In this document: positions 7,926 to 61,110 of the stretch, piece after piece | Layout of the letters: the number at the start of each line of letters is the position of its first letter | How positions within the stretch are numbered: the stretch's first letter is position 1 | Origin: Bolinopsis microptera | Lineage: Eukaryota > Ctenophora > Tentaculata > Lobata > Bolinopsidae | NCBI RefSeq assembly: GCF_026151205.1 | Contig: NC_087076.1 | Location: 23,492,828 to 23,556,827 of the forward strand | Length of the DNA stretch: 64,000 bases | Direction: 5' to 3' | Program-made: the position numbers and the translations under genes | The notes under the pieces: generated by a model | Told to the model about the DNA's origin: nothing | The model's database searches: none | What the model saw: only the letters and a program-made list of their open reading frames with translations

Positions 7926-9083
7926 TTAGCTTGCCAGATGAGACGATGAAAATATTTTGGGAAGACTTCTGACGTGCTTGCTTGATGATAAGTTGGGGCA
8001 AGATCCTGTCCTAGACCTGTTGTACTTTAATTGATTTGAACCCTTGTTTGTGAACGATCCCGTTATTGGCCCTTTACCTTTGGATAAACCAAACAAAAAG
8101 AAGATGTGTGATATTTTCTTACTCAAAAACGCTCTAAAGCTTCTCACGGTAAGGGAATACACAAAAAAGTTAGCCATAATGTTTAAGTAAGTAAGGAAAT
8201 GTACCGCCCTAAGGAATGTGATATTGAAATGAAAACGTTTGTTAACGTTCCAGACCAGGTCTACCAGACAGATAGGCAGGAAGGAGATAAAGAAGACCCC
8301 CACTGTTAGCAGCACTGTTACAGCACCCTCTCTCCGCAGTCTCCCCCCATGTCGAGATGCTGCTTTGTGCGCTACTACGAAGATGAGGACGGATGTGACC
8401 ACGAGGACAAGACAGGGAGTAATGAGAAGAACACTAGAGCAGATTAAAGTGTACCAGTTCAACCATATTGGAGCAAAGTGTTCGTTGTAGGAGAACGTGT
8501 AAGATTTGTAGTCGAAGTAGATATCGTCCCTGATGAACAACATGCTGCCCACGATGAGGGGCAGATAGAAACACAACATCAGACTCCACAGAGCCGCGCA
8601 TATCTTGTGACCAAGCACTGCTGACAACCCTGCAGTTCTCAGAGGATACTTTAAATATACCAGCTTTAGGATTGTCATGGCACAGTTCAACAGCACAGTC
8701 GCTGAAACACACATGTTCTTGGTGTGGATGCCAACATGTCCGAGGAACACTCCGACCACCCCACCGTCTGCAACCAGTGCCACGGTGGTGGGTAACACTT
8801 CGAACAGAGCGAGCAGAATGTCAATAACTGCAAGGTTCTGCATCACAGCTACTATTACCTTGTGCAGCTTTATAGCGTTATACTTTACAGTGCTCACTAG
8901 TATTATGCTGTCTCCAATCAGTGACAAAACTAAAACTGTCATCGCCCAAGTTATCAAAATAGTCCGCTCTACGTAATTGTCCGTTATTCCATGAAGAGTT
9001 TTACGATCAATATCCTCCCAGTTTGTGGAGGTGAAGGAAGAAGTTGACAGTGTGGCTGAACCTTCCCAATTATTTGTCTGCAT
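7926..9083 (-). CDS. intronless class A (rhodopsin-like) G-protein-coupled receptor 1
   Basis: The single exon of 385 codons encodes seven hydrophobic helices: TM1 about 43-70, TM2 about 76-105, TM3 about 117-145, TM4 about 160-185, TM5 about 208-238, TM6 about 250-278, TM7 about 288-315. A Ser/Thr-rich N-terminus and a basic cytoplasmic tail are present. The TM2 start YNAIKLHK and the KYPLR segment after TM3 are shared with the receptor at 24985-25974, so the two are paralogues. The DRY motif after TM3 is not conserved (LKLVYLKYPLR), and NPxxY in TM7 is replaced by ANFFVY. It probably acts at the plasma membrane as a sensory, peptide or amine receptor; the ligand cannot be inferred. The start is the first ATG of the open frame. 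The lineage-restricted GPCR expansions of cnidarians or placozoans have this form. Confidence 0.85.
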   Translation of the reverse strand: MQTNNWEGSATLSTSSFTSTNWEDIDRKTLHGITDNYVERTILITWAMTVLVLSLIGDSIILVSTVKYNAIKLHKVIVAVMQNLAVIDILLALFEVLPTTVALVADGGVVGVFLGHVGIHTKNMCVSATVLLNCAMTILKLVYLKYPLRTAGLSAVLGHKICAALWSLMLCFYLPLIVGSMLFIRDDIYFDYKSYTFSYNEHFAPIWLNWYTLICSSVLLITPCLVLVVTSVLIFVVAHKAASRHGGRLRREGAVTVLLTVGVFFISFLPICLVDLVWNVNKRFHFNITFLRAVHFLTYLNIMANFFVYSLTVRSFRAFLSKKISHIFFLFGLSKGKGPITGSFTNKGSNQLKYNRSRTGSCPNLSSSKHVRSLPKIFSSSHLAS

Positions 9084-9638: not shown

Positions 9639-11153
9639 TCACATCTCTGTCTCGAGGGAATAATCTAGATCATAATCAAAGTCCTCCGGCAGAATTTTAT
9701 CCCACATGTAGGAGGTCAATTTGCTTTTGAACTCAGAAATAGTCTCTATCTCACGTATAGCTAGAGGAATATGATTCCATTTGGAATGGGTCCTAAAGTA
9801 AAAGTTCTTAGCAAAAGCGTTAGAGCTTGCTCGTGGTAAGATCGAGCTTACAAAACATAAGGGGTCCATGTGGCTATTTCTTAACCTTGAGTGGCCTTGA
9901 AATGGTTGCAAATATGAGGGTAAAGTGACAGGAATATGTTGCTTCACAATTTTAAAGAAGAAAATAAGCTCAAGAAAGTCGAAGCGGTCTTCTATGGGCA
10001 TAATCTTAAGCTGTCTGCATTTTTGAATGTATGTGGATGGTGGATAACTCATATACTCCTCGCGAAGAATCCACTTAATAGCACGCTTTTGGAGGCCCTC
10101 CAGCTTGCTTATCTGGGATTTGGTGACCGGTCTCCATATAACTGAGCAATGCTCAAATTGACTTCTCATTAAAGTGAGATACAGTACTCTACGACGATTT
10201 ACATCTTGAACAAAATAGCAATTTCTCCTTGCCATGCCTAATTTTTGGTTGGCCTTTGAAAGGACTTTAGATCACTGGTCTTGCCAGTCGAGATTCTTGG
10301 TCACAAAAACACCCAGATCCTTTTCATGATCGACATAGTCAAGTGCGATTCTTCCCATGGAGTATACAAAGTTAAAGAGTGGTAGGACACTAAGGAGGGA
10401 AACTGTCTCGGATATCCTTCCTGCGACGGTGAGGACCTTAAATTTATCGGGATGAAATCTCATTTTATTAGAAAGTGACCAGTCATGGAGATAATCAATG
10501 TCCTTCTGCAGTCGCAGGATATCAGACTCCGAAACAATCTCACGCCAAATTTTAGTATCATCGGCATACAGTGACAGTTGTGTGCCTGGTGAAATCCCCA
10601 CTGATATATCATCAATGAACATAATGAACAACAAAGGTCCCAAAATTGACCCTTTTGGTACACCAGATTGGGCGTTTCTCATGGAAGAAAATTTACCACT
10701 TATCAAGACCTGTTGTTGCCTGTCTCTTAGATAATCAGTGAGAAATTTCAGTAGCCTCCCATCAATACCAAATTTGCTCTTTAGCTTAAATAATTTAAGA
10801 TCATGGTTAACTAAGTCAAAGGCTTTGGCAAAATCAAAATAGACTACATCTGTTCTCATATTTTCATTCAGTGAGAGAGCTAGGCTGTCACATAGACCTA
10901 CAAGATTAGTTGCACATGATCTTTCAGCTCGAAAACCGTGTTGTTTATCGTTGATCATGTAAGTTAGTAAGTGCAAGTAACTCATCTTTAATTATGCGTT
11001 CAAGAACTTTGGTGATTAAGCATGTAAGGGATATTGGCCTATAATTTGAAACCTCATGTTTATCACCTTTTTTATATATGGGTACAACGTGTCCCAGTTT
11101 CCACTCCCTAGGTAATGTCCCAATGTTGTAACATGAATGAAATAATGTTACTA
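9639..11153 (-). pseudogene. LINE B ORF2, 3' part: RT core and C-terminal domain
   Basis: The segment resumes at VTLFHSCYNIG (11151) and continues GDKHEVSNYRPISLT. There is a small indel near 10950-10985. It then continues with DKQHGFRAERSC, VYFDFAKAFDLVNHD, GVPKGSILGPLLF and LYADDTKIW (catalytic Asp pair). A TGA at 10272-10274 interrupts the frame, and the same frame resumes to 9639 with the thumb and C-terminal region (EHCSVIWRP, LQKRAIKWI). Together with 12804-14622 it accounts for one whole ORF2. The defects are one frameshift, one nonsense codon and the insertion. Confidence 0.8.
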
Positions 11154-12803: not shown

Positions 12804-14622
12804 TACTAGTAGTGATAATGGGTATGCAAGCCCAACAGCACAGTTTTTCAAAAGTTTCCCATGAATACCATCAGGCCCATAAGCTTTGTTAGGGTTAATA
12901 TTGGAAAGGATTTTGCGAACCCTTTGGTGGTCAAATGCAATATCAAAGCGCCAATCGTTTGAATAATCAATATCTATGTCGTATAATGATGCTTCAGAGA
13001 ACTGCTCGAAGAAAAAGCCATTAAATAAGTTGGCCTGGTCCTCTGGGCAGTTGCGGAAAATGCCTTTGTAGCTTACAAACTCAGGAATTCTTTGACTAGC
13101 TGTTTTTGATTTTACATATGACCAGAATTTTTTTTGTTACAATTAGAGCGCTATCATCTGATTCATTTAATGTTTCTCGCATTTTTTGAGCAACCACATT
13201 TTTGAAGTTTTTCCTGGCAAGGGAGAACGCTATTTGGGCTCTATCGCTTTTATGTCTATCTTTATGCAGTCTTATTTTCTTGCGCCATGCATCATAGCAC
13301 TCTGAGTCAAACCATGGATCTTGTCCATCTGTCTTAACTGAGCATTTCTTGATGAATTTGTCAGTGATATTGAAAAGTTTTTCCTTAAATTTTTTCCACC
13401 CAATTTCAGGTTCTGTGCCACTAAGCAATGCATTCCAGTCTGTGTGCCGGAGTTCATGGTTTAGCCTCTCCCAGTTCACGTTTTTATAGTTATAGCACAT
13501 ACGCTTAACCGGCTTCTTCCTATTTACCTTAATGTTGATCTTAAAGTTGATTGGAAAATGATCAGACTTACAGACGCTATCTCGCTCACCTACCATTAGG
13601 TCACTGATATTAGAGTCAGAGTTTGTGAGCAAAAGGTCCAGTGTTTTGCCTTTGCAATGGGTGGGTGTAAGTACACATTGCCGAAGGCCAAGGTCTACAA
13701 AAGATTCAACAAAAATCTGCTCAATAGGACAGGAGCCGGCCAAGGTAGACCAGGAGACTCCAGTCAGGTTGAAATCTCCTAGGATAAATACTTTGCTTAG
13801 CCCTCTTCTCCGAAGAAGAGTTTTCAGAGATCCAAGAATTTTTTCATGATTTGCAAAGCCCAGTGTACCAACACGATAACATGTACAGATAACAAATTTA
13901 ATGCCCGTTGATGTTGTAAACTCCACAGCAAGAATCTCAGCCCCCTCTTTAAGTCGGATTTCTTTCGAAGATAATTGAAGGTCTGCTCTCACAGCAATCA
14001 TGAACCCGCCACCATTTCTCCTAAACCGGGTCGGATTAGAGGGATCAGGTGGATGAGTTTTCTTAGATCTGTCAGAGCGAAATATCTTATATTTATCAGG
14101 GTGCAGGAATTCGCTATCAGCTATGGAGTTTTTAAACCAAGTTTCGTTAAGTATTGCAATATCTATATTTGCCTCATTAAAATAAGTTGAAAGCTCAAGA
14201 CATTTGGTGTTATCAAGCATTGGGTGGGCATTATTAAGCTCACCGAAGGGAATAAGGCCTTGAACATTCTGAAAGTAAACATTCAATACCTTACTATTCC
14301 CCAACCTAATATCTATAAGAGGGGGTCCTGGGTTTACGATTCCAGGATTTACAAAAACTATCAAAATACCATTCAACAAGAACAACCAAATTATGCATCC
14401 AGTTAGTGCAAAACCAGCTCTACCAGTAGATAAAAAGTTTAAATTCCTATAAATTGTAACATGGCAGAAATTGTAAAGGCCGTCGAAACTATAATCATTC
14501 CGGAAATAATACATATTTGCTAAGTGTAGAAGGAAATATACAGTAAAATATCGGCACAGGTTAGGCACTGGATATGTTGGTACAAAGGCTCGGCAATCAT
14601 ATGTGACTCTAGAAAAAGCCAA
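12804..14622 (-). pseudogene. LINE B ORF2, 5' part: membrane-like leader, AP endonuclease, start of RT
   Basis: The frame 14622-13096 holds a leader of about 100 residues with a strongly hydrophobic segment (about 72-91) ending in VNPGIVNPGP. It is followed by a complete AP-type endonuclease: VYFQNVQGL, ILNETWF, RNGGGFMIAV, YRVGTLGF, ILGDFNLTG, LDLLLTN, SDHFPI. At an eight-A run (13131-13138) the frame is lost. Translation in another frame continues with RIPEFVSYKG and the RT start NKAYGPDGIHG, and reaches LAYPLSLLV at 12804, where the insertion begins. The order matches LINE A residue for residue in outline. This copy is inactive. Confidence 0.8.
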
Positions 14623-14839: not shown

Positions 14840-16208
14840 CTATTGATATACAAAGGGATTAAAATATCTACTGTGTATGGCACGAATATAAGACCTAGCC
14901 AACACCCCCATTCCTTTCTGAGGATTAGGGTGAATACCATTGCTCTCAAATAACGGGTCAAATCTCCTAACGGGTTCCTTATAAGTTCTCTTGAATTTAG
15001 TGAAGGGATAAAAGACATCCATAAAGAAGAACATCCTGAATACACACTCATTATATAAAATCCTATTAAAGTCTATTATCCTCTTGTTAGTTAATCTATC
15101 ATCATCAGACGTTAAGGGTAATGGCAATAAAGATTGAACATAAACCTTACAATAAGGAATTAATTGGCATATCTTACTAAAGAGTTGCTTCAGAGGCCCT
15201 CTAACTATGCCTACATCGTCTACCCGTCTAATATCGTTCGTACCAACACTAATTAAAAGTTTATCAACCTGAACATCGGGATGTGCAGCAGAATAGTCCT
15301 CAAGCTGCTTCTGGACCTTGTCCATCTTTGCTCCACCTTGTGCAACATTATCGACTTTGACTTTCCCTTTTCCCAGCTTGTCCGAGTCCAATCTCTGAGC
15401 AAAAGAGTCTCCAGCAACCAACGTGACTTTCTGCACAGGTTCTTTGACTTTAATGCCACAAGCAGGTGTACTAGTCTCACTGGCACTGTTGGTTTCAGAG
15501 CTGGCCTGGCTGCCAGTTTTCACGATTGCGCGAAAAGACAGGGAGTATCGCACTTGGTCTTGACCATCCTCCTTCGTACCAGTAGCCAGCTCTGCACGCA
15601 CCGCATGCTTCAGATTCTGCTGTGTCCCAGGCCTCATTACGACAAGGCTGTTGTTCTTCATCCTTATCGCTTTGGCACATTTAGGATTCTTCTTTGTACC
15701 CTCGTAAAACTCAAGTGTCCGTTCACACCCCAGGGAGAAAGAGCATATCGATTTCTCCTGGTCGATGAGTGTCTCGTCGTCACAGTGTAACGAGGTGCTG
15801 GACTGGTTGTTATTGTACTTGATCACCAGACAGGAGTCCAAAAGGTCCAGTTATCTCTGTGCTTGAGTTAACGAGACTCAGCAGCCTTTTGAAGTTAGGG
15901 AAACTACTGATATCCTGTGGTGAGTGTACTGGGTTTGTGTCCGGGTACGTATAGGCCTGATCCTGCGAGCATAACCAAGCGGTTTGAGCCTTGTTTCTCC
16001 CCCCAGTGTTCATCTTCAAGGACCCACACTCCACCCATACTGCATCAAGGAGGACATCATCACCACAGAAGTCCTCTAGGTGCAAAACAAAGTTGTCCAC
16101 CTTTCCCTCACGCTTAGGGAGCTCGTTCTGGACACAGTTGAGGATATTTTGCAGATCCTCAATTGAAGCAGCTTTAACATAGTCGAAAATCTCTTCAAGG
16201 TTTATCAT
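14840..16208 (-). pseudogene. LINE B ORF1: AlkB-like 2OG-Fe(II) dioxygenase plus SGNH hydrolase, one frameshift
   Basis: Two overlapping frames form one protein of about 455 residues. The first part starts at an ATG at 16208 (MINLEEIFDYV) and carries an acidic helical N-terminus and the beginning of the AlkB fold. The second frame (15841-14840) continues it with the iron ligands in LHCDDE, the second histidine in LKHAV, and RYSLSFR, which gives HxD...H...RxxxxxR. The SGNH domain follows: LVAGDSF (block I Ser), ISVGTNDI (block III), SNGIHPNP (block V His). The frame changes by one base in a CCTTTTGG stretch near 15838; this could be a simple indel or, less likely, programmed frameshifting. AlkB enzymes remove alkyl groups from nucleic acid bases; SGNH domains occur in ORF1 of CR1-type LINEs. 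The pairing matches LINE C ORF1 despite low sequence identity. Confidence 0.8.
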
Positions 16209-16670
16209 TATTATCAGAGATTGTCGAGTCTGGCAGCAAAGTTTGCCAGGGAACCATCCATAACACCCCAGAGTAGGCAACCACACACAACACTAAACAC
16301 TACCTGAAGGAGAAAGGGCAAGAGAAAATGGGTAATGGTACAAGTGGTTCTAGGTAAATTTTGCCAAGCGTAAGTAAATTTTGCCAGTGAAACTTTAGCT
16401 AGAATAATGATAAGAGGGGCAATAATCAATATCAGAGTTGTAAATGTGTGACTAACATCAATCATGTTATCATTGAAAGCAAAATTATGGATAAAATCAA
16501 AGTAAAAGATCAGCTTACAGCGTGTTTGAGGGCGTTGCTGCCCAGTGCAAGCACTGGGCGAGAGGAGCCTAACTCAAGGGTGAACTTCAGGAACCCCAGC
16601 GTACCCGCATACCAGGAGATCGGCTGTACTTCCTACCCCGTCATGCCATCGTACATGCCTAAATTTTTTT

Positions 16671-21150: not shown

Positions 21151-22858
21151 ATTTTGTTGTAGAACTGCATCTTGGTTTGCGATCCCAGGTCCACCCTCCA
21201 GTCATTGATAAAGACATCCCTCATGGTGCCATGAGCTGCTTCTGTTTCATAATGAGCCACAGAGCTAAGTTTCTCGTACCAGGAGAGGTTAAGATTTTTC
21301 TGTTCCTGAAACGCTTGAGATACTAAAAAATTGACACTGTTCGTCTCAGAAGAAGCTCTGGAAAGTCTTCTAAAGTATCTGAGGCATTGTGGCAGAACTG
21401 AGAGGGCCCAGGGCATCCTTCCTGTATCCCCGTAACTTGTGCACACCCAGTACCCATTTGAGCATTTTGAGGTGTGTTGTCTCAAGAGTGTCTTTTGCTG
21501 CAACTTTTGATAGGTTGTGTCTTTGGCTGGGTTCACGCGCCATTTCTTTCATGAGGTGAGTCGAGGGTAGCCATATCTGACAGGCGTAAGTTGCTACCGG
21601 TTTCACCAGATAGTCAATTAGCTTTAGCATGGTTTTGGTGGTCAGAGCTCTGGTGTCTACCATGCGTTTTATCGAAAAGAATGCTCGAAGCGCCTTCTTC
21701 CTCAGTTCGTTCATGGCGCATTTAAAAGATCCATTGAGGCTGAGCTGGATACCTAAATAGCAGTAGGACCTTGTTGGAGAGATGTCGAGCTGTCCAAGCT
21801 TGAACCCGTACGAGCAGTTTAGCACCCGCGAGCTTGAGTTGAAGACCATTATTTTAGTCTTATCAATGTTGATAGATAGCTCCCATTTGTTTGCAAAATC
21901 ATTTAGGCAGTTAAGCTCTTTCTGAAGGCTTTGGTGGTCAAGAGCTAAAAGGATGAGATCGTCGGCCCAGAGCAGGTGGTTGACTGGGAAGCCATTAAGT
22001 TCAGGGACAGAGAGATCTTCTAGGGCTGCTAGATGGATGGAGAGGTCGTAGATGTATATCTTAAACAATTCAGGAGACATTGGATGCCCCTGCTCTGTTC
22101 CAATGGTGACATCAATGGTCTCCGATAGTTTTTGGATCAGTTTGATGCGGGTCACCGAGTTGCTGTACATGTTCTTAAGGCAAGCGAAGAAGTTCCCTCC
22201 GATACCAAGGTGATTGAGCTTATACATGAGTGCTTCTCTGCACACCGTATCGAACGCTTTCCGGTAGTCAACAAAACAAGCAAACACTCTCTTTTTGAGC
22301 TTTTTCGTGTATTTCTCAATGATTGTGGTAATTGTAAGGATGTGATCCGAGCACTGTGCACCAGCTCTGAAGCCAAGTTGGTGGGGGAAATCGGGGCAGA
22401 TAACTTTGCGGAAGTCGATAAGTCTTTCAAGGAGAACAGAAGCAAATAGCTTCCCTAGACAGCTTCCAACAGTTATCGCCCTGTAGTTGTCAGGGTTCTG
22501 TTTGTCGCCCTTCTTGTGGAGAGGGGTGGTTATCGAACAATTCCATGGGTAAGTCCCCTGTTCCAGGCAGCCGTTGAACAACTTGAGAAGAACTTTCCTT
22601 AGGCAAAGTTTGGAGTTCTTGAGCATCTCGTTCGATATTAGGTCCAGTGATACGCTCTTGTTGTTTTTGAGTTTGTTGATCACCTTTTCAAGCTCTTGTA
22701 GAGTGAACTCCATGTTAAGATTTTCCACTTCAGTTGGTAGGTCAGGGTGGCTGCTCCCATCATTGCTTGCGTTGTGGGCTTGAAGTTCACGGTGGGATGG
22801 ATCCTTGCACTTTTGGTTGTAGAGGTCGTTGAAGAATTTGTGAAAAGCAGTAAAAGCT
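21151..22858 (-). pseudogene. LINE F reverse transcriptase, 5' part (frameshifted)
   Basis: The open frame 22728-21370 carries the RT fingers and palm: NNKSVSLDLISNEML, PLHKKGDKQNPDNYRAITV, HQLGFRAGAQCSDHI, CFVDYRKAFDTV, GTEQGHPMSPELF, and the catalytic LLWADDLILLA. Translation upstream of its first ATG stays open to about 22858, where the 5' truncation occurs. A one-base frame change near 21430-21480 moves the protein into the 21536-21126 frame (LPQCLRYFRRL, INDWRVDLGS, MQFYNKI), where the SINE interrupts it. Confidence 0.75.
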
Positions 22859-24984: not shown

Positions 24985-25974
24985 ATGAAGTACGAAAATT
25001 ACACAAGATTTGGAATTCATGACAAAGCTGAAAGGTATGTTCTCTCTGCATACACGTCCTTCATTTTCCTATCATCCCTGATAGGAGACACCCTCATCCT
25101 CATTGGCTCTATGAGGTACAACGCTATAAAGCTTCACAAGATAATGGTGGTATTCATCCAGTACATTGCTGTCGCTGATTTGGTCATCTCCATCGTTAGA
25201 CTCCTGCCTGGTGCAGTTTCACTTGTTGCCAATGTCTGGGTCTTCGGTGACTTCCTTTGCTCTGCAGGATTCTTCATTTCGGGCAGCTTTGGGGGAACAA
25301 TCGCTCTTCTCATCGGTGCCCTTACATTTGCCAAGTTCCTGATCGTGAAATATCCACTGAGAGCAGTTCATTTTTCAAAGAGAGCAGGTCATCTGACGAC
25401 CCTGGTCATGTTTTCATGCATGTCTTCTTTTGGAGTGCTCGTGGCTGCCGAAAAGGGTGCTTACTTCAGCTACGTGAGCTACAATTGCGACTATGCACTT
25501 CCAGCTGATAAGTCCAAGATTGATTATGTCTTTGGAGTAGTTATAGGAGGAGTCGGACTCATCACTACAGGGATCATCACAGTGAGCAGCGTTATGCTAC
25601 TATTCCTGGCAAAAAAGATTGCAGATAGAAGAGCTGGAGGTCTCCAATGGCAGGGGATCAGAACGGTCCTTCTCACTGTGGTGGTTTATGCCATAGCAAC
25701 TGTCCCGTTAATTGTTAACCTATTTGAACATCCAAAAAACCAGCCAGAGTCTACTCCGACTTCCTACATTGCATATACTAGGTTTGCAATGTTCATATTG
25801 TATCTGCAAGCCCCTGCTAACTTCTTCATCTACACAGCCAGTCTCACCAGCTTCCAGGAGTTCCTGAAGTCTAGGATCAGGGTGGTTTTTGCTTCCATCA
25901 GGAGACGTTTTGTTTCCAGCGGAGATCAGCGCACCGCTCAGCAGGCGAGAGAGCGAGATAGACTACTGCCTTAA
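24985..25974 (+). CDS. intronless class A (rhodopsin-like) G-protein-coupled receptor 2
   Basis: The single exon of 329 codons has seven membrane helices: TM1 about 20-45, TM2 about 54-83, TM3 about 90-118, TM4 about 133-153, TM5 about 180-208, TM6 about 222-245, TM7 about 262-285. The short N-terminus contains an N-glycosylation sequon (NYT). It shares YNAIKLHK before TM2 and KYPLRA after TM3 with the receptor at 7926-9083. As there, DRY is absent (FAKFLIVKYPLR) and NPxxY is replaced by ANFFIY, so the departures are family traits and not decay. The tail is Arg-rich. An AATAAA lies near 26132, about 160 bp after the stop. Ligand and coupling are unknown. Confidence 0.88.
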   Translation: MKYENYTRFGIHDKAERYVLSAYTSFIFLSSLIGDTLILIGSMRYNAIKLHKIMVVFIQYIAVADLVISIVRLLPGAVSLVANVWVFGDFLCSAGFFISGSFGGTIALLIGALTFAKFLIVKYPLRAVHFSKRAGHLTTLVMFSCMSSFGVLVAAEKGAYFSYVSYNCDYALPADKSKIDYVFGVVIGGVGLITTGIITVSSVMLLFLAKKIADRRAGGLQWQGIRTVLLTVVVYAIATVPLIVNLFEHPKNQPESTPTSYIAYTRFAMFILYLQAPANFFIYTASLTSFQEFLKSRIRVVFASIRRRFVSSGDQRTAQQARERDRLLP

Positions 25975-27279: not shown

Positions 27280-30200
27280 AAAAATTGAAAAAAGTTCGGA
27301 TTTTTGATGGTTTTGAATGCCTTCGAGCGTTTAGACCCCAAAGGTTTTGCTCTATTACGGGTAAACCTAGGATGCTGCAGATTCAACTCTGTACATTCAG
27401 ACCGTCTGTGCGTGGTGAAGAGCCACATCCTGCTCGAGGTGGGGCTGCATGCAACTTCAGTGATGGAGTTGTAACTGAACACAGCGGATCTAGGGGTGCA
27501 CCCCCGAAAAAAAGCCGGGCATCCTCAGAACAAGCCCGTGATGATGGTGATTTGGGTTAATGAAGATGTAACAGATTCCGGAACTATGGGAGCACCATCT
27601 GTCATCTTTCCGTTTTATTTACTGTATGTGGGAACATCTACTGATGAAGTAGCTATCAAGAGAGCCATTCCAGTGGCGCAGGTGGCTCACGTGTCACATA
27701 GCCAACAGAAAAGAAACATGATGAATAGTTCTTACAGCACTAGGGTATCAGCCCCTACTTTTGTTTCTGGACGTGAAGGTGGTAATGATTTCACCAACTT
27801 AAATCCGAATGGAAGGTTGGTGAATGATGAGCCTAATCAACCTGAAACACCCAACATAAACGAAAACAACAAAAAAAGTTTATTTTCATGTACCGACATT
27901 ACCTGGGTAGGCACTCTTAACACTAGAACGATAAGAACTGCTCAGAGGAAACTGGAGATGGTACATCTTTTCGAGAAGAGTGGAGCAGAGATTGTAGGTA
28001 TCCAAGAGCACAGGATAGTCCATGAAGAGCCTGTCAAAGTAGAGAGAGTTGGCAAGAGCAGCTATCTAATTACTTCATCAGCTACTAGGAATCGGGCCCA
28101 GGCAGCAGTGGGCGGAGTGGGATTCATCCTAACTAGCAAGGCATTTGACGCAACTACGGAGATAACACCAGTAACGGAGAGAATCCTTAAGATATCTCTA
28201 AATGGTAATCCTAAACCAACCTTCGTCTGTGTCTACGGACCTACGGAGGCAGATAGTGTAGAAGCAGCAGAGAAGTTTCATACCGATCTAAGGTGTTGTG
28301 CAGTCTCACAGATCCCTGCTCACAACTTCTTGGAGATGATTGGGGATTTTAACGCTCACCTATCAAAGAGGGACGAGAATGACTTTGGTTGGTATTTCCA
28401 TGAGAGAACCAACAGAAATGGGGAACTGCTTCGGGATACTGCCCTGGAATGTAATCTGGAGATTACAAACACCAGGTTCAGAAAGAAGCGGGGTAAGATG
28501 TGGACTCACCTATCGGATGGAACCCTGAATAAGTCTCAGTTAGACTTTATTCTAGTGAGGAAGAAGTGGAGGAACAGTGTCAAAAATACTGAAGTCTACA
28601 GCTTCTTTAGTACACTGGGTACTGATCATAGACTTGTTTTGTCTAAGATCAAGCTATCTCTTCGACGAGCAAAAAAGCAACCCAAGAAAACCTGGTATAA
28701 TTGGGGAGCACTTAAATCGGATGAAGACCTTCAGAAGAGATATGCGGTAGAAGTCAAGAATCGGTACTCTGCTTTATGCGGGTGATCAGCGAGTTCAAAG
28801 CGTGCGTACAGCCTTGCAGCAAGCAGAGACTGTCTATCACCGGGATCCTAGTGAAGACAGTCGACTGTCTGTTAAGCTACTAAAAACTGAACTGGATCAG
28901 GTGTACCAGGACATCTTTGAAGAAGATCTAGTTGCCAAGGTTAGAAGGGTCGAAATGGCTGCAGACAGATGCAAAAACAAAGAAAGTTGGAATGTCATTA
29001 ATGAGATAACTGGCAGGAAGGCCAAGGGGGCAACTCAAATAAGGGGCAACGGAGCCGAAGAAAGGAAGAAAAATTGGCTTGGGCATTTCACGAATCTATT
29101 AGGGAGTATACCGGATGTGGAAAACGAGCATCCTAGGATCATGAATCAATTTGAAGGACTCAGCATCAGTACAGAACCTTTTACTGTGGATGAGCTTAAA
29201 GCTGCTAAACACAGGATAAAAGAAGGTAAAGCACCAGGTGATGACGGCATACCACCTGAAGTCCTCAAAAGATGCGACCTGGATGAAATCGTGCTGTCAT
29301 TCTGCAACAAAGCCCTGACAGATGGTATTGCGCCAGATCAGTGGAGGATAAGTAACATCATCCCGGTCCCCAAAAAGGGAGACTTGACCAACCCTGGAAA
29401 CTGGAGGGGGATATCTTTGACTTCTCTCGTAGCTAAGACTCTTAATAGAATGGTGCTTAATAGGATCCAGCCGGCTATAGAGGGGGTACTTAGGGACACT
29501 CAGAATGGTTTTCGGGAAGGACGGTCCACTACTAGTCACATCTTGGCACTCAGAAGGATTCTAGAGGGGGCTAGACAGAGAAATTTACCGGTAGCTATGG
29601 TGTTTGTTGATTTTAAGAAGGCCTTTGATTCACTTCACCGGGGAATTTTTATGCAAATACTTAAGGCCTATGGAATACCGGACAGTATTGTAGATATCAT
29701 TAATCTTCTCTATGTCAACACGAAGGGCAAAGTTATAACACCAGATGGGGATACCGAGCTATTTGATATCCTGGCAGGAGTTCTTCAAGGGGATACATTA
29801 GCACCATACTTGTTCATTATAGCCCTTGACTATTGCATGAGACAAGCCTTAAGCAAGCATCCTGAAATAGGATTTACCATTAAGCCTTATCGGAGTAGGA
29901 GAGTCAAGGCGGAGAAGATAACAGACACTGGTTTTGCAGATGACATTGCTCTGATAGCAGATACTGTAAAGGAGGCAGAGATGCTGATGCTAGAGGTAGA
30001 AAGAGTTGCTGCTACAGTGGGACTTAAAATGAACGAAGGGAAAACCAAATTCATTACTCAGAACATCGAGAACCCTGATACCATCAAGTCCCTGGGTAAC
30101 AACACAATAGAGCACGTGGAAGACTTTACCTATCTTGGTTCTAGAATCAGAGACAGTGAGAGTGATATCAGGGTTAGGAAAGGAAGAGCATGGGGAGCAT

Positions 30201-30705
30201 GCCACACTCTCAAAAAACTTTGGAAATCTAACCTTAGAAAGTCTATCAAGACCAGAGTGTTCACAGCACTAGTCGAGTCGGTGCTTCTATACGGTTCTGA
30301 GACTTGGACTATGACGAAAAGGCTGGAGAAGATGGTTGATGGTTGCTATACACGAATGTTAAGAATGGCCCTTAACATCAATCAATATCGAGACCATGTC
30401 AGCAACCACAGTCTGTACGGTGATCTTCCTAAAGTCAGCTCCAAGATAACCCAACGAAGGCTCAGACTTGCAGGTCATGCTCACTGACATCCGGAGCTGA
30501 CACTGAACAAACTGATCCTCTGGAAGCCGAGTCATGGGCATACTAACAGGGGGCGACCTTACCTAACACTACTAGATAACCTAAAAGCAGATACTGGGCT
30601 GAAATCAGTAGATGAGATAGCTAGACTGATGGAGGACAGAAAGCTGTGGAGAACTGTTGTCAATGGATCTCGGGAATACTACCCGCCTTAAGTCAGTAAG
30701 TCAGT
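27280..30705 (+). mobile_element. LINE D, non-LTR retrotransposon (RTE-like), nested in the DNA transposon
   Basis: It encodes an AP endonuclease and RT, then ends in a short tandem tail (taagtcagtaagtcag) at 30690-30705, as RTE-type elements do. The 5' boundary is uncertain, somewhere between 27117 and 27500. Confidence 0.75.
27496..30691 (+). pseudogene. LINE D endonuclease-reverse transcriptase, one frame break and one nonsense codon
   Basis: The first frame (27496-28785) has a Ser/Asn-rich N-terminus of about 135 residues, then the endonuclease: TLNTRTIRT, GIQEHRI, GGVGFIL, VYGPTEAD, IGDFNAHL, QLDFILV, LGTDHRLV. A frame break near 28785-28802 separates the RT (28802-30487): GKAPGDDGIPPEVL, NWRGISLTS, QNGFREGRSTTSH, VDFKKAFDSLHR, GVLQGDTLAPYLF, GFADDIALIAD, YLGSRI. 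A TGA at 30485-30487 cuts the usual GHxxRHPEL motif; reading through, the same frame stays open to TAA at 30689-30691 with the expected C-terminal tail (NRGRPYLTLLDNL). The TGA is probably a CGA that mutated. Confidence 0.8.
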
Positions 30706-31609: not shown

Positions 31610-33434
31610 CAGGGTGGGCCAAAAGTCAGTACCCATACGTTGGCCTTTATAGCTCAGTCACTGAGTGCCCAATTTAAATACTTCTTTCTGGTATGACTTA
31701 GTACCACCACTGGTTCGAGGAATTTGTCAACTCGAAAAATATGGAGGTTCATTTTCACATTTATTTGATAGTTTAGATAGTCGGATCAAGCTAAATGTTA
31801 TTGAATTGTGTTTGGCTATTCGAATTACGTTTGTCCTGAAAGAATTAGAACTGTAGCTTCTCAGATGACCGAGATATGAACCATAACGAGTTTATTCATT
31901 ACGTGTGATCGGGTGATTGGTTTACCTAATCACGTGATAAGGTCCCCCGTTAACTACCCCGTTAAACATTATGGGAATTGTTAAGGGTGCCCAATTAAGG
32001 TGTCGTGTCACGGTGTCACATAATCACCCAGTCAATTTTGTTAACGAGATACAGAAAATGCTTGATAACTTCGTCATTTCTAATCCGTTTTGCCTCATGT
32101 TTTCAGATCATATGCAACATTTGATGATCTACCGTCTCTGAAAAAATTAGGCGTTCAGCATGTTCAGAGAAAACAATATAGGTCTTTTAATATTGAATGG
32201 GCGTGGTCTAAAATATTCGAATTTTCAAATTTTGACGACGGAATCCTCGAACCAGTAAATACAGTATGCCATCTGCAAAGCAACAGCTCTCATGGCGATT
32301 CAGTAGTGTGGCATAACACGGTTAACGCACGGTTAAGGCACGGTTAAGGCACAGTTAAGGCACGGTTGAGGCACGGTTAAGGCACGGTTAAGGCACAAGG
32401 GTTACATAAGGCACGGTTCTTAAGGCACGGTTAACGCACGGTTAACGCACGGTTAACGCACGGTTAACGCACGGTTAAGGCACAAACTGCCCAAAAGCAA
32501 CCATTATGGTCGCTTAAGGCACGGTTAACGCACGGTTGGGGAAATATAACATATAAACATACAAGTGGTTAACTAAGGCACGGTTAAGGCACGGCTAGGG
32601 AACAAGGGTTACATAAGGCACGGTTGTTTATGTCGGGATATGATCCATGTCAGCTGATCAACGAGATAAAAAGTTTGCATGTATTGATAAGTGTGCGGGT
32701 GGTGTCAGCACGCAGCAAAGTTGGGTGATGTGATCTGATACATGACTGCATGCGAAGTAGGTTGTGTAGATCACCTCGCTCAAATAAACAGGTGTGAGCT
32801 CTAGGAGATGTTAACTTAATTTGAAGAGCCTTGTTACTTGAAGAGATCGTTAATCGAGATAAGGATTTCAAATATAGGACGGTCAAACGAAGCAGGGCTG
32901 TTGCTTTACCATTTACAATTAGAAAATTTATTCATAGCGCGAATCGCACTGTAAAATTTACAGATCGTCACATTCAGATCATGTGCCTTAGTTAACCACT
33001 TGTATGTTTATAGGCTATATTTCCCCAACCGTGCGTTAACCGTGCCTTAAGCGACCATAATGGTTGCTTTTGGGCAGTTTGTGCCTTAACCGTGCCTTAA
33101 GTGACCGTGTCTCAACCGTGCCTTATGTAACCCTTGTTCCCTAGCCGTGCCTTAACCGTGCCTTAGTTAACCACTTGTATGTTTATATGTTATATTTCCC
33201 CAACCGTGCGTTAACCGTGCCTTAAGCGACCATAATGGTTGCTTTTGGGCAGTTTGTGCCTTAACCGTGCCTTATGTAACCCTTGTGCCTTAACCGTGCC
33301 TTAACTGTGCCTTAACCGTGCCTTAACCGTGCGTTAACCGTGTTATGCCACACTACTGAATTGCCGCTCTCAAATATAAAACACAGCGGAGCTATTAAGG
33401 CCAACGTATGGGTACTGACTTTTGGCCCACCCTG
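31610..33434. mobile_element. 1,825-bp non-autonomous mariner-like TIR element with a large internal fold-back
   Basis: The ends are CAGGGTGGGCCAAAAGTCAG and its complement, extending to about 45 bp with a few mismatches (shared TACCCATACGTTGGCC), flanked by TA at 31608-31609 and 33435-33436. Inside, 32299-32640 and about 32990-33362 are long inverted arms. They are made of 11-bp ggttaaggcac / ggttaacgcac units plus a shared unique part (gcaaccattatggtcgctta, aacatacaagtggttaa), around a spacer of about 350 bp. The right arm carries an internal duplication (32995-33170 and 33173-33300). No transposase ORF is visible. The fragments at 31665-31856 and 32090-32347 resemble nothing I know. Confidence 0.75.
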
Positions 33435-54565: not shown

Positions 54566-54616
54566 CTCCTAATATGGACTTCATCTCTTCGGACCCCGGG
54601 CTGCCAGGTAGTGGTG

Positions 54617-54905: not shown

Positions 54906-54966
54906 TAGTGGTGCCCATACCACTACCTCTACAGAACACTGCCTGGCACCCCCTACCACACCCGGT

Positions 54967-56586
54967 ATGTGCGTTATAAGTACTCAAACAGACATAACAT
55001 TTGGACAGTGGCTTCCTACCCTGTCACCTAAACTATGCCTCGATCTGTTCGAGCACGTTAAGGATGAGCACATGGCGCACGAAATCTCCTACAACAATTC
55101 ACTGGGAATTGATTTAGGGATTAAATCCAACACTAAGGTTTCAAAACGTAAAGTTCTATTGAAACAAAAACTGGAGAACGATTGTAAAAATGCTAACTTT
55201 ATCAATTCGTTTACGGTAGATGTTGCCAAAATAGATTCATTAATGAACCATTTTTCCGGTTTGCTGGAGAAGGCAGAAACAACACTAGAGGACTACAAGA
55301 CAGAAGTTCGGAGAACAACCGCAGACTGCATCGGAAACAGCGCACTCCCTTCTGCTCCAGCCCCACAACAGTTAGTGATTAGCCCACCCTCCGCAGCTCT
55401 ACCTACTCCGGTATGTAATCTAAGTGTGAACTTTAATGACATTAATTGGATGGACATCTGCAAGAGCATGAACTTCCGCAGAATCGCATCCCGATCCGTA
55501 CAGTACTTTGGAGCAACAGATTACCGCTATGGGTCGACCGTGCATCATTCCAGAAACTATCCTCAGAACTCCGTCATTGACCACATTTTTACAAACATTT
55601 CGAATGCATTAGATGACCCTACGTTTAATAAGGAGCAGGTAACTTGTCTAATCACCAAATATGAAAACGGCAAGTGCCACATACCCTTCCACAGTGATGA
55701 TGAAAATGAGGTCACTGGTGACATCATTACACTCAGTCTTGGGGCCTCTAGAGACCTAGTATTTCGTAGCAAAGTCGGTCCGGTCAAACAACAGATCCAC
55801 AAACTTGACCATGGATGTGTGTATGTGATGACACGTGAATCACAGAATTTCTGGGAGCATGGTATATTGCCACAACCAGAAACTCAGGACTGCAGAATAT
55901 CGCTTACGTTCAGACGCCTCTCTCAGAATACCCCCCCTCGCAAAAAAATCCCGAGGATCCACGAACCGATTCATAAGCCTACGGTTACTGAGCAGTCTCA
56001 ACCTAAGGAGCGTCTATTATTCTTGACGGACTCGCTTCTCAGAGATGTCCCTTTTGACCTTCCTAACGTACACTGCATCAAACGCGAAATGTACCAGTTA
56101 TCCAAAATTTTAGATCACGAACAATATATTTCTGGCTCTAAAATTGTCATAATTTCTTCTGGTATAAACGATTTATCTCGCTATGACCACCACCACCACT
56201 CCCTTTCATGTGATTTTAAGAGAAATATTGATTATCTAATTGAGAAATATCCTAACACGACTTTTATATTTAATTCTTTAGTTCTCACACGTTTCTCGTG
56301 GCTTAATGAGGAAGTTAAGCATTTTAACAGCTTTATTTTTGAACTAAGCAATAGAGTGTCCAAGCTATGGTTCTTTGACTCGCACCATATTTGTACTGTT
56401 TTATACCAGAGAAGAGAGGTCATTGTAGATCCTGGTGGAAACGGAATCCACCTAACAGTCATGTCCAAGAGAGAGATAGCTCGCTCTCTTGTTACCTGTG
56501 TCAAAGAATTTATGGGGCGCAGCTACTTAATTCGAAAACACTGGCCGCTAAGACGGGAGTATGTTTCTTCATTGGGCAGACCTTAG
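54967..56586 (+). CDS. LINE C ORF1: AlkB-like 2OG-Fe(II) dioxygenase fused to an SGNH hydrolase
   Basis: The protein is 539 aa. Residues 1-150 are a helical N-terminal region (possible oligomerisation segment near 75-120) and a Pro/Ala linker. The AlkB domain spans about 155-320: ITKYENGKCHIPFHSDDE with iron ligands H242 and D244, ITLSLGASRDLVF, the third ligand H298 in FWEHGILP, and R310-ISLTF-R316, the RxxxxxR motif that binds 2-oxoglutarate and marks AlkB rather than other dioxygenases. The SGNH domain spans about 345-515: LLFLTDSLL (block I, catalytic Ser), IISSGINDLSR (block III), GGNGIHLTV (block V His). AlkB proteins oxidatively demethylate DNA or RNA bases; SGNH domains are known in ORF1 of CR1-type LINEs. 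The start chosen is the first ATG of the frame, after the MITE. A role in repairing or unmasking the element's RNA or cDNA is an inference. Confidence 0.9.
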   Translation: MCVISTQTDITFGQWLPTLSPKLCLDLFEHVKDEHMAHEISYNNSLGIDLGIKSNTKVSKRKVLLKQKLENDCKNANFINSFTVDVAKIDSLMNHFSGLLEKAETTLEDYKTEVRRTTADCIGNSALPSAPAPQQLVISPPSAALPTPVCNLSVNFNDINWMDICKSMNFRRIASRSVQYFGATDYRYGSTVHHSRNYPQNSVIDHIFTNISNALDDPTFNKEQVTCLITKYENGKCHIPFHSDDENEVTGDIITLSLGASRDLVFRSKVGPVKQQIHKLDHGCVYVMTRESQNFWEHGILPQPETQDCRISLTFRRLSQNTPPRKKIPRIHEPIHKPTVTEQSQPKERLLFLTDSLLRDVPFDLPNVHCIKREMYQLSKILDHEQYISGSKIVIISSGINDLSRYDHHHHSLSCDFKRNIDYLIEKYPNTTFIFNSLVLTRFSWLNEEVKHFNSFIFELSNRVSKLWFFDSHHICTVLYQRREVIVDPGGNGIHLTVMSKREIARSLVTCVKEFMGRSYLIRKHWPLRREYVSSLGRP

Positions 56587-57068: not shown

Positions 57069-60000
57069 ATGGTAGTTATCCGAAGTAGTAAAAATAGCTG
57101 TAAGGCCTGTGCAAAGCGCCTAGTCTCACACAAGGTAAGCATCACTTGTAGTATTTGTTATACGACATATCACCCAAAATGTGCTCACCTAACACCTAGC
57201 GACATAACTGAACTTACTGGAGAATGGTCTTGCTACAGCTGCATTTCAGAAATTCTTCCAGTGGGTGCCGTCATGCCTCTATCACCATCACGGCCTATAC
57301 AAATCCAAGTCTCCAATAAACGAGAAAAATGTCACACTTGCACAAAAATTGGGAATATAAGACAAATGACCAAATGTTGCTACTGTGACAACCTATCCCA
57401 CACAAGATGTTCTGCTGGCTCAACAGGCTGCAAAGATTGCTTGGGAAAAATTTTCCCAGCATACGATGTCTCCATTAGACAGCTTCACATGATAAATTTC
57501 AGTAACACTATTAGGTTTAACCCCTTTAATCGCGACCACCTATCAAATCAAATAGGTGATCATGATGATACTGATGCTGATTTGAATCCATGGGAAACAA
57601 CGTCTAGTCTTCTAAATAACTGCAAATATTATACCGCGAACGCGATCAAAAATACGAAGGAGTATGAATTGAAAGTTTTCTCGCTAAACGTTAGGTCACT
57701 TAATGGGAAAATTGAAGAATTTCGGGAGAATATAGATCAATACACAAAATACGACGTTCTCTGCTTCAATGAAACAAATTGTAACACGGAATGTTTGCCT
57801 TTTCAGGGAGAGGAGCTCGAACTAGACGGTTTCTATCCACCGTATGTTCAGACTCCCGCTAGAGCGTCAAATCGTGGTGGAGGATTAGTCATATATGTTA
57901 ACAAAAAACTATGTGAATTATCTGACATAAACGTTAAGAGCGCTCTATGTTGCCACGATAATCCTAAGATAGGAGAATTCTTGGTTGCAGAACTTACCTT
58001 GAAAGGGCACAAAAACGCGTTAATCTGTAATATATATCGCTCTCCAAGTGGGGACTTGAATGGTTTCCTTGAACAATTGAAAATTTTCCTCCGTAACTTA
58101 GCAAGACATCGAAACAAAAATATCATACTGGCCGGTGATACTAACATAGACCTACTAGATTACGGGAGAATAGACTCTGTTACTAAGTATGTGGACACTT
58201 TAGCAGAGCACGGATTCGCTCCTGTGATATCAAGACCAACTAGAGTCACAGATCACAGTGCGACTATCATTGACCATATTTTCGTCAATAATTGCCACGC
58301 TGTTACAAAATCGGGAGTAATTTCTGAATCAATCTCTGACCACTTGGCAACTTTTGTCACAATTATGGTTGATCAGAATAGGCTCAGTTGTAAACTTCAA
58401 GAAGATACAACAGAAACATCTTCTCGAGTAATAAACGATGACAGCATCAAAAAGTTCGAGAACGACATTTCTGCCGTAGACTGGAACTTGGTTAATAACT
58501 ATGATTCTGCAGATGAAAAATTTGAGGCTTTCGAGAAAAAATATAGTGAACTATACGACCGAAATTTCCCAATGAAGGCAAAAAAGAGTAAACCAGGCCG
58601 CCGTAAAAACACAAAGCCGTGGATCCAAGAATGGTTACGGTGCGCATGTGATCGCAAAAATAAATTTTATGAAGATTTTGTCACAAACCCGACCACTGAA
58701 AATGATATTAGGTACAAGAAAATGAAGAAATTTGTGAATAAACACGTGGATAAGGCCAAAAACAAATATTACAACGCATACTTTACAAAATATTCTAGCG
58801 ACAGCAGAAAACAATGGCAAATGGTTAATAACTTGTTAAACAGAAAGAAAAAAGGCAAAATCAAGATAAACAAAATTAACTATAATGGGAGCGAGATAAC
58901 AGATTCTCAGCAAATTGCGAATAGCTTCAATGACTATTTCTGCAATATAGCTGAGACTCTTAAGAGAGAAAATGGTCTCGTATGCTCCGAGGGCCGGACT
59001 ATCGTAACAGAAACTCAAGATAGCAAATGCCAGCGGAGCATGAATCTCGAAGACTCGTCCGCATCAGAAATAATTGAAATAGTTAAGGGTCTGAAGATTA
59101 AGTCGACTTCTGATATGAGTATACTTCCCCTGAAAAAAGTGAGCAATATACTTGCGCCAGTGCTTAGCTGCCTAGTCTCTGCTTCTCTACATCAGGGGAA
59201 GTTTCCACATAAATTGAAAATCGCGAAAGTAATTCCACTTCACAAAGGTGGGTCACGTGCTGAAGTTTCAAACTATCGACCAATCTCACTACTTTCGTGT
59301 TTCTCAAAAATCTTTGAAAAAATTATGCAAGCGCGACTATTAGATCACTTAAAGACAGAGAAAATCCTATTTGACTCTCAATACGGATTTCGAGCTGGAC
59401 ATAGCTGTGAACATGCTTTACTAGAAGCCCAAAACCATATCCACAGGGCACTAGAAAAAAAGCAGGTCACAGCACTGCTTCTATTGGACTACAGCAAGGC
59501 CTTCGACATGGTTGACAGCAGTATTCTTCTGAGAAAACTTGAGCACTATGGAGTTCGGGGATTGGCTTTATCTTGGTTTCACTCATATCTTACCGATAGA
59601 GAGCAATACGTGAGCGTCAACAACTGCAAGTCCTCTCACCTCAAACTTAACTACGGAGTACCACAGGGCTCCATTCTCGGACCAATTCTGTTCATAATTT
59701 ACATCAACGACCTTCCTCAGATTAGTAATTTAGCTAAACATATTTATTTCGCTGACGACGCAAACCTAATAATAAGTACAGATACATTTGAACAACTTAA
59801 TGCAATGGTGAATGAGATTCTGACTTTGATAATTGATTGGGCTACTAATAACGGGCTTAAATTAAATGCTAGCAAAACTAAATATATGATCTTTACAAAT
59901 AAGAAAACTGAGGATATAGAAATTTACATGGGAGGTGAACGATTAAAGCAAAGTGATCACGAAAGGTTTCTTGGCGTGATCATTGATACCAAGCTAAATT

Positions 60001-60680
60001 GGGCCCACCACATTAGACATTTAGCCACTAAAGTATCTAGAAATGCGGGCATACTCTACAAACTCAAAGGCTCTGTACCTAACAAAGCACTCAAGTTGAT
60101 ATACAACAGCTTTGTTCAGTCTCACTTGTACTACTGCTGCACAGTTTGGGGAACAAGATCGCTAAACTCCGTTAAAAGAGTCTTCTCGGCCCAGAAAAAG
60201 GGCATTCGCGCTGCAGATAACCAATACCACCGCTATTTTTATGACAAAGATCTGAACAGTACACCTTCACACACAAAGGAAATTTTTAATAAACTAGAAG
60301 TATTAGCTTTACCGAACGTGATAGCTAAATGTATATTATGCTTAATGCACAAAGTTTATTCTAACACTGCACCACCAAATATTAAAAGAATGTTCACTGT
60401 TTCAAACTTAAACGCACCTAGAAGAGAACCTGAGTTCTTTGCAGTACCATTTAACCGTTTATGTAATTCAGACAAGAGCATTTCTTACATTGGGCCTAAG
60501 TTATATAACAAAACAGTCAACATTATTAACAAGGACATAAAATATGTCACGACTTGCCTACAAGACAAATTCCTAAATTCATTCAAGTCTACAGTCAGCA
60601 AGCATGTGCTTACTGCACAAGCACTTAACCCGGATGACAAGGACTGGAACAACTCAAATTTCGTACTTTTAGAAATTTAA
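57069..60680 (+). CDS. LINE C ORF2: double zinc finger, AP endonuclease, reverse transcriptase
   Basis: The protein is 1,203 aa. Residues about 11-62 form a PHD-like finger (CKAC, CSIC, YHPKC, WSCYSC), and 82-128 a second Cys/His cluster (CHTC, CCYC, SHTRC, CKDC). The AP-type endonuclease runs about 205-430: SLNVRSLNGK, CFNETN, NRGGGLVIYV, IYRSPSGD, LAGDTNIDL, IDHIFVN, SDHLATF. The RT runs about 670-960: NYRPISLLS, QYGFRAGHSC, LLDYSKAFDMVDS, YGVPQGSILGPILF, and catalytic FADDANL near 893; a thumb and C-terminal region follow. It nicks target DNA and primes reverse transcription from it. ORF1 lies 480 bp upstream in the same orientation. Both catalytic domains look intact, so this could be a competent copy. 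The PHD finger may read chromatin, which is an inference. Confidence 0.92.
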   Translation: MVVIRSSKNSCKACAKRLVSHKVSITCSICYTTYHPKCAHLTPSDITELTGEWSCYSCISEILPVGAVMPLSPSRPIQIQVSNKREKCHTCTKIGNIRQMTKCCYCDNLSHTRCSAGSTGCKDCLGKIFPAYDVSIRQLHMINFSNTIRFNPFNRDHLSNQIGDHDDTDADLNPWETTSSLLNNCKYYTANAIKNTKEYELKVFSLNVRSLNGKIEEFRENIDQYTKYDVLCFNETNCNTECLPFQGEELELDGFYPPYVQTPARASNRGGGLVIYVNKKLCELSDINVKSALCCHDNPKIGEFLVAELTLKGHKNALICNIYRSPSGDLNGFLEQLKIFLRNLARHRNKNIILAGDTNIDLLDYGRIDSVTKYVDTLAEHGFAPVISRPTRVTDHSATIIDHIFVNNCHAVTKSGVISESISDHLATFVTIMVDQNRLSCKLQEDTTETSSRVINDDSIKKFENDISAVDWNLVNNYDSADEKFEAFEKKYSELYDRNFPMKAKKSKPGRRKNTKPWIQEWLRCACDRKNKFYEDFVTNPTTENDIRYKKMKKFVNKHVDKAKNKYYNAYFTKYSSDSRKQWQMVNNLLNRKKKGKIKINKINYNGSEITDSQQIANSFNDYFCNIAETLKRENGLVCSEGRTIVTETQDSKCQRSMNLEDSSASEIIEIVKGLKIKSTSDMSILPLKKVSNILAPVLSCLVSASLHQGKFPHKLKIAKVIPLHKGGSRAEVSNYRPISLLSCFSKIFEKIMQARLLDHLKTEKILFDSQYGFRAGHSCEHALLEAQNHIHRALEKKQVTALLLLDYSKAFDMVDSSILLRKLEHYGVRGLALSWFHSYLTDREQYVSVNNCKSSHLKLNYGVPQGSILGPILFIIYINDLPQISNLAKHIYFADDANLIISTDTFEQLNAMVNEILTLIIDWATNNGLKLNASKTKYMIFTNKKTEDIEIYMGGERLKQSDHERFLGVIIDTKLNWAHHIRHLATKVSRNAGILYKLKGSVPNKALKLIYNSFVQSHLYYCCTVWGTRSLNSVKRVFSAQKKGIRAADNQYHRYFYDKDLNSTPSHTKEIFNKLEVLALPNVIAKCILCLMHKVYSNTAPPNIKRMFTVSNLNAPRREPEFFAVPFNRLCNSDKSISYIGPKLYNKTVNIINKDIKYVTTCLQDKFLNSFKSTVSKHVLTAQALNPDDKDWNNSNFVLLEI

Positions 60681-61056
60681 ATAATTTGGTACAACATACG
60701 TTGATAATAACGAGCAACAAAACTTTAACCTCATAACGAAATATGACTATCTTCGAGCATTTTCTACAATGCTATCGCTACCGCGCAATTTCACTGTCAT
60801 TTACAAAACAAAAATATCACCGCGCATTCTTCAGACCCTGTGTCGCTGTTCTAAATTTATGTCAAGAGATAAGAGTTATTTAGAAATTCTTAATAGTAGT
60901 ACTATTCAAATTTGCTAATAGCGTAATCATATTTTATACATTATTCATATTTTATACATTGTGTGCATATATTTATATTTGATTGTAATTAAAGATTTTA
61001 AGGCGTTAGTGCCGAGTAATGCCTCTGGGTAGTGCTCCTCAATCAATCAATCAATC

Positions 61057-61110
61057 ATATAACAAATAATTTGAGCCTGAAGATGGCGTTGACGCCGAAA
61101 ATTTGCCCTT
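61057..61110 (+). repeat. target-repeat, right part, with a hammerhead-like core
   Basis: ATATAACAAATAATTTGAG is followed by CCTGAAGATGGCGTTGACGC and CGAAAA. CTGAAGA, a GGCG/CGCC stem with a TTGA loop, and GAAA resemble the hammerhead-ribozyme core (CUGANGA, stem II, GAAA) found in Penelope-like elements. The flanking stems are not convincing. Confidence 0.35.

Follow-up and report, generated by a model that had tools for sequence, protein, structure and literature searches.

A ctenophore LINE whose ORF1 joins an AlkB-type dioxygenase domain to an SGNH domain

The window analysed here is a 64,000-nt stretch of the genome of the ctenophore Bolinopsis microptera (assembly GCF_026151205.1, contig NC_087076.1, positions 23,492,828 to 23,556,827 of the forward strand), and all coordinates below refer to it. 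It contains a long interspersed nuclear element (LINE) with two open reading frames (ORFs), of which the first, ORF1, encodes a long helix, an AlkB-type dioxygenase domain and an SGNH domain, and the second, ORF2, an endonuclease and a reverse transcriptase (RT). Relatives share the AlkB-SGNH architecture, as does a second LINE lineage of the same window, and the AlkB catalytic residues are strictly retained. The features of the element, with their evidence, are:

54574..54616 (+), upstream piece of ORF1 (MDFISSDPGLPGSG), cut off by an insert; translation, likeness to the N-terminus of relative P0002
54617..54905 (no strand), short insert of 289 bp, presumably hAT-like; 13-bp terminal inverted repeats, duplication TAGTGGTG at 54609-54616 and 54906-54913
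54967..56586 (+), open frame first taken as ORF1; 539 aa, beginning at an internal Met
55195..55323 (+), residues 77-119, a long helix whose heptads are coiled-coil-like; predicted model and heptad statistics
55396..55926 (+), AlkB dioxygenase domain, residues 144-320, with H242, D244, H298, R310 and R316; profile, structure comparison, alignment
56002..56526 (+), SGNH domain, residues 346-520, with S356, G399, N401, H495 and an Asn at the Asp position 492; family profile, predicted model, alignment
57069..60680 (+), ORF2, 1203 aa; weak PHD-like finger at 57099-57242, endonuclease domain at 57681-58343, RT at 59265-59984
61039..61057 (+), (TCAA)n repeat; probably marks where the element ends on its 3' side

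An earlier reading of this locus, made from the sequence only, had ORF1 start at 54967, but the Met at this position is internal. The frame is already open from at least 54574, where its peptide resembles the N-terminus of P0002, and after the insert it resumes as SGAHTTTSTEHCLAPPTTPG, ahead of Met(54967). Thus, the ATG at 54967 is not the native start, because the frame runs upstream of it and is interrupted by the 289-bp insert. We take the insert to be hAT-like from the length of its 8-bp duplication; its 13-bp terminal repeat has no further occurrence within the window. The remainder of ORF1, and ORF2, are open in this copy. In the helix of the predicted model (residues 77-119), 92% of the a/d positions are hydrophobic, compared with 19% elsewhere, a value reached by none of 2000 shuffles. 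A Pfam scan of ORF1 at E ≤ 1 found neither an RRM nor a zinc knuckle.

The identification of the two globular domains of ORF1 as AlkB and SGNH is, in our judgement, close to certain. For AlkB, the Pfam family 2OG-FeII_Oxy_2 (PF13532) matches residues 182-316 with E = 1.6e-20, above the cut-off, and the single protein retrieves ALKBH2 (2.5e-9), ALKBH3 (3.2e-7) and Escherichia coli AlkB (4e-6) from among the PDB sequences. The jelly-roll AlkB fold is recovered both by the family profile, which favours ALKBH3, and by structure comparison of the predicted model. The best 50 rows of that comparison against the PDB are filled by ALKBH2/3 and GDSL structures, so that the absence of the ZfL2-1 esterase from them is uninformative. 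The sequence-only reading had stated in advance that a failure of profile or structure comparison to recover the AlkB family would count against it; both yield AlkB. It had also placed the signature residues in the order H242-x-D244, H298, R310xxxxxR316, and this is where they lie: the Fe(II) ligands H242, D244 and H298 and the 2-oxoglutarate arginines R310 and R316 (RxxxxxR) are identical in all 83 rows of the alignment of relatives described below (A2), in which the commonest residue of an AlkB-domain position has a mean frequency of 53%.

At a threshold of E ≤ 0.001, a search with ORF1 returned 94 homologues, 82 of which make up alignment A2 together with the query; the 12 others were dropped before counting, either as shorter pieces (P0024, P0079, P0082, P0084 and P0085), as AlkB proteins without SGNH (P0087, P0090, P0094 and P0095) or as SGNH proteins without AlkB (P0088, P0089 and P0091). 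At E ≤ 0.01, PF13532 matches 83/83 rows of A2 and Lipase_GDSL_2 41/83. A profile search gave 129 matches, of which 120 were listed. The domain census covered 133 sequences, namely P0001-P0129, the second element of the window, a single AlkB from a bacterium and two fragments of human AlkB, and recorded AlkB in 126, SGNH in 100 and both domains in 93. All five AlkB catalytic positions are covered by 89 of these 93 and are intact in every one of them, and the remaining four show no departure at the catalytic positions that they do cover. A one-off capture, which had likewise been named beforehand as a possible refutation, is at odds with this retention of AlkB by relatives. Neither domain was found in any of the 119 proteins first met in the ORF2 search, as expected for a separate ORF. 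When the ORF1 and ORF2 homologues were compared by the length of their longest contigs, one pair (P0022 and P0161, both 7438) was seen by eye to agree; a rough estimate puts the chance expectation at one or two such pairs, and no weight is given to it. Scans of viral contigs revealed no DNA relative of the element, and the sole match in a scan of genome contigs was a bacterial AlkB without SGNH (L001).

The SGNH fold is seen with the family profile and in the predicted model, whereas the GDSL Pfam match of the single ORF1 (E = 0.0036) falls below the cut-off, so that of the two Pfam families proposed for checking only 2OG-FeII_Oxy_2 passes with the single sequence. Blocks I, III and V had been reported from the sequence, and their residues are indeed there, S356 in block I, G399 and N401 in block III and H495 in block V, but the block V Asp, three residues before the His, is an Asn in the window ORF1 and in 74 of the 83 rows of A2. 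Among the 88 proteins that cover position 492 there are 81 with Asn, five with His and two with Asp, and the Ser, the block III Gly and Asn and the His are kept. The Asp to Asn change at residues 492-495 (56440-56451), in a domain that retains its Ser and His, may denote an altered or weakened hydrolase. In the esterase of zebrafish ZfL2-1 the triad is Ser-Asp-His, with the Asp three residues before the His, and a transposon-specific His191 lies four residues before the oxyanion Asn (PMC3905857). By ungapped offset from N401, the position equivalent to His191 is Ser in 74/83 rows and His in 1/83. The window protein therefore has an SGNH fold after a coiled-coil-like helix, as ZfL2-1 does, but neither the Ser-Asp-His triad nor His191, and because the triad Asp is mostly Asn and the His191 position mostly Ser we do not class it with the ZfL2-1-type esterases.

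ORF2 begins 482 nt after ORF1. It matches Exo_endo_phos (1.7e-14) and RVT_1 (2.9e-38), with a weak PHD match below the cut-off (3.9e-4), and carries the motifs FADD and SDH; at E ≤ 1 Pfam gave no integrase and no protease family. An APE-type endonuclease and an RT in a single ORF are the mark of a LINE. No convincing target-site duplication was found, the repeats seen being at most 8 bp long. The two ORFs also come together in another ctenophore, Mnemiopsis leidyi, in which the 1014-aa gene model P0096 carries AlkB and SGNH (56% identity to the window ORF1 over 80% of its length) and, behind them, an endonuclease region that matches the window ORF2 at 66% identity over 518 aa. Being a single predicted protein on a long contig and without most of ORF2, P0096 is a gene model that runs through an element, which falls short of a proven transcript. 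The assignment of the AlkB-SGNH frame to a LINE ORF1 is thus upheld by its neighbour ORF2 and by the Mnemiopsis model that joins both parts.

AlkB and SGNH also occur together in the ORF1 of a second, distantly related LINE of the window, which is 26% identical to the first ORF1 over 212 aa. Its pieces are:

14840..15841 (-), C-terminal ORF1 piece with AlkB and SGNH; PF13532 3.2e-14, Lipase_GDSL_2 5.9e-12, both above the cut-off
15810..16286 (-), probable N-terminal ORF1 piece in another frame; by eye, no Pfam AlkB match
13096..14622 (-), ORF2 endonuclease piece; Exo_endo_phos_2 4.6e-11
10272..10985 (-), ORF2 RT piece; 31% identical to the RT of the first element (226 aa aligned) and 50% to the 3852-6467 LINE (228 aa aligned)
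9639..10235 (-), ORF2 C-terminal piece; 95 aa aligned with the 3852-6467 LINE at 40% identity

The end of the 15810-16286 piece resembles, by eye, an N-terminal AlkB half, and the endonuclease and RT pieces are broken. At residue 97 of the ORF, the leader of ORF2 (13096-14622) reads NPGP, which we take to recall 2A-like peptides, although the residues that usually precede it there are absent. A third LINE at 3852-6467(+), with endonuclease and RT, belongs to the same lineage as the second. A profile search of the six frames of the window found two AlkB-SGNH ORF1s and no more, so that none was detected with the third LINE here.

In a careful tree of AlkB domains, 31 LINE rows, the long-branched second element among them, fall on one side of a branch and 32 cellular rows on the other, with support of 89/62, which is not decisive. 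A quick tree grouped 30 LINE rows at 99% SH-aLRT, whereas the second element, again long-branched, fell outside this LINE clade. Both trees are compatible with one capture or with two, so that the AlkB of the second element may have either origin. In the SGNH tree (39 rows, two of them unlabelled fragments, with a root chosen by the analyst and long branches that meet), the three AlkB-less proteins P0088, P0089 and P0091 fall among the AlkB-bearing ORF1s. This placement weakly suggests that they have lost AlkB; a pre-capture form is also possible.

Elsewhere in the window, LINE-like remains lie at 27496-30487(+) (RVT_1 4.5e-32) and 21370-22728(-) (RVT_1 2.6e-27). A tandem array with a 56-bp unit extends, within an A+T-rich stretch, from 35737 to about 40850 (87 register copies, those listed being mostly 97-99% alike), and an inverted-repeat cluster of a GGCACGGTTAA-like unit, with arms of up to 162 nt at 99%, occupies 32294-33365. 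Two intronless receptor-like ORFs, at 7926-9083(-) (7tm_1 4.5e-14) and 24985-25974(+), have a 71% inverted repeat in common.

We propose the following reading of the first element. The ORF1 protein, with its coiled-coil-like helix, would multimerise on the element's own RNA. Its ALKBH2/3-type dioxygenase would then, in the manner of ALKBH3, oxidatively strip methyl groups from the Watson-Crick face of bases in that RNA, that is, from N1-methyladenosine (m1A) and N3-methylcytidine (m3C). These lesions would block the element's RT, and their removal would leave a readable template. The SGNH domain would serve as a membrane- or ligand-binding module or a slow hydrolase, not as an efficient esterase. 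This reading as a whole has, we estimate, slightly less than an even chance, its uncertain part being the mechanism. The broader proposal, in which at least two diverged LINE lineages carry an ORF1 with an ALKBH3-like eraser of m1A and m3C that acts on their own RNA before reverse transcription, a self-encoded template-repair function retained across deep divergence and either inherited by LINE lineages or exchanged between them, is slightly more tentative. Several points weigh against the reading of the first element. The window copy of ORF1 is N-terminally disrupted. Three ORF1-like proteins of about 420 aa (P0088, P0089 and P0091), which by eye have an N-terminal SPxTCLxL motif in common, carry SGNH at 117-121 bits and no AlkB, so AlkB is not always needed. 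ALKBH2 and ALKBH3 are tied by Z in the structure comparison, and action on DNA as in ALKBH2 is possible. A plant AlkB inserted into a plant RNA virus was quickly lost and brought no gain in fitness (PMC9249622). Finally, we infer both the action of the ORF1 protein on its own RNA and the choice of substrate.

The alternative that fares best, though we hold it to be unlikely, is that the domain erases N6-methyladenosine (m6A) and so conceals the element's RNA from host control that works through m6A, a role suggested for an orchid Gypsy AlkB. Of the substrates named in the sequence-only reading, m1A and m3C suit the AlkB residues better than m6A does, and a role in m6A removal is less likely. 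Next comes DNA repair during target-primed reverse transcription, on cDNA or the nicked target, as ALKBH2 does on nuclear DNA. The tie noted above would allow it, but the family profile favours ALKBH3, which acts on single-stranded DNA or RNA (PMC10816986), and ORF1 proteins are generally known as RNA-packaging (PMC3905857); we consider it improbable. Less probable again is that the AlkB fold is mainly an RNA-binding platform in place of the RRM absent from esterase-type ORF1s, with catalysis secondary. It would fit the Repbase esterase-bearing ORF1 proteins, which lack a structured RNA-binding domain (PMC3905857), and the lack of an RRM or zinc knuckle in the window ORF1, whereas mere binding would not require the Fe ligands and 2-oxoglutarate arginines that are intact in 89/89 proteins against the 53% mean for the domain. 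Capture of a host AlkB by a single dead LINE copy, or chance resemblance, to which the disrupted state of the window copy might point, is refuted by the 94 homologues, the five residues kept in all 89 covering proteins, the second LINE lineage and the Mnemiopsis model, and its probability is negligible.

Retention of the AlkB-SGNH pair in many relatives suggests that some LINEs carry a nucleic-acid demethylase, which, if active, they would supply for themselves. One could then test directly whether methylated bases in the RNA of an element restrict its retrotransposition, and whether marks of this kind serve animals as a defence against transposons; the ORF1-like proteins that have a related SGNH domain and no AlkB offer a natural control.

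The sequence-only reading knew of no described AlkB domain in a LINE ORF1, and our literature search agrees with it: among the best matches, as far as titles and the opening of abstracts tell, no paper describes one, although a Repbase annotation may exist. The words AlkB, dioxygenase and oxygenase have no occurrences in the main text of Metcalfe and Casane 2014 (PMC4120745). The nearest published case that we found is that of the orchid Ty3/Gypsy elements (PMC9289625), likewise retrotransposons that encode an AlkB-type dioxygenase. Those are long terminal repeat (LTR) elements of the Tat/Ogre lineage with an ALKBH5-like AlkB in an extra ORF and m6A activity, whereas the window element is a LINE with an ALKBH2/3-like AlkB fused to SGNH in ORF1, and the APE-type endonuclease and RT of its ORF2 place it outside Tat/Ogre. 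Plant RNA viruses, such as blackberry virus Y with its P1 protein, are also RNA-based mobile genomes with AlkB; RNA repair has been proposed for these domains, as the earlier reading had it, and one of them demethylates RNA in vitro (PMC9249622). They sit in polyproteins or replicases, however, and unlike a LINE these viruses do not reverse transcribe. Among the matches listed, the viral ones were to proteins that carry AlkB in a different architecture. Human ALKBH3 and ALKBH2 are about 23-25% identical to the window AlkB, which, unlike them, is part of a LINE ORF1 and is flanked there by a helical region and SGNH. The esterase-type ORF1 of ZfL2-1 (PMC3905857) has the same coiled-coil-like helix followed by an SGNH fold, with no RRM found; in the window element AlkB stands between the two, the triad Asp is Asn (81/88) and the His191 position is Ser (74/83). 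In the Jockey superfamily, ORF1 types I-V are built of exchangeable modules, esterase and PHD among them (PMC4120745). The window ORF1 is modular in the same way and AlkB is the module that differs, which, if active, would be a new enzyme among those described for LINE ORF1s.
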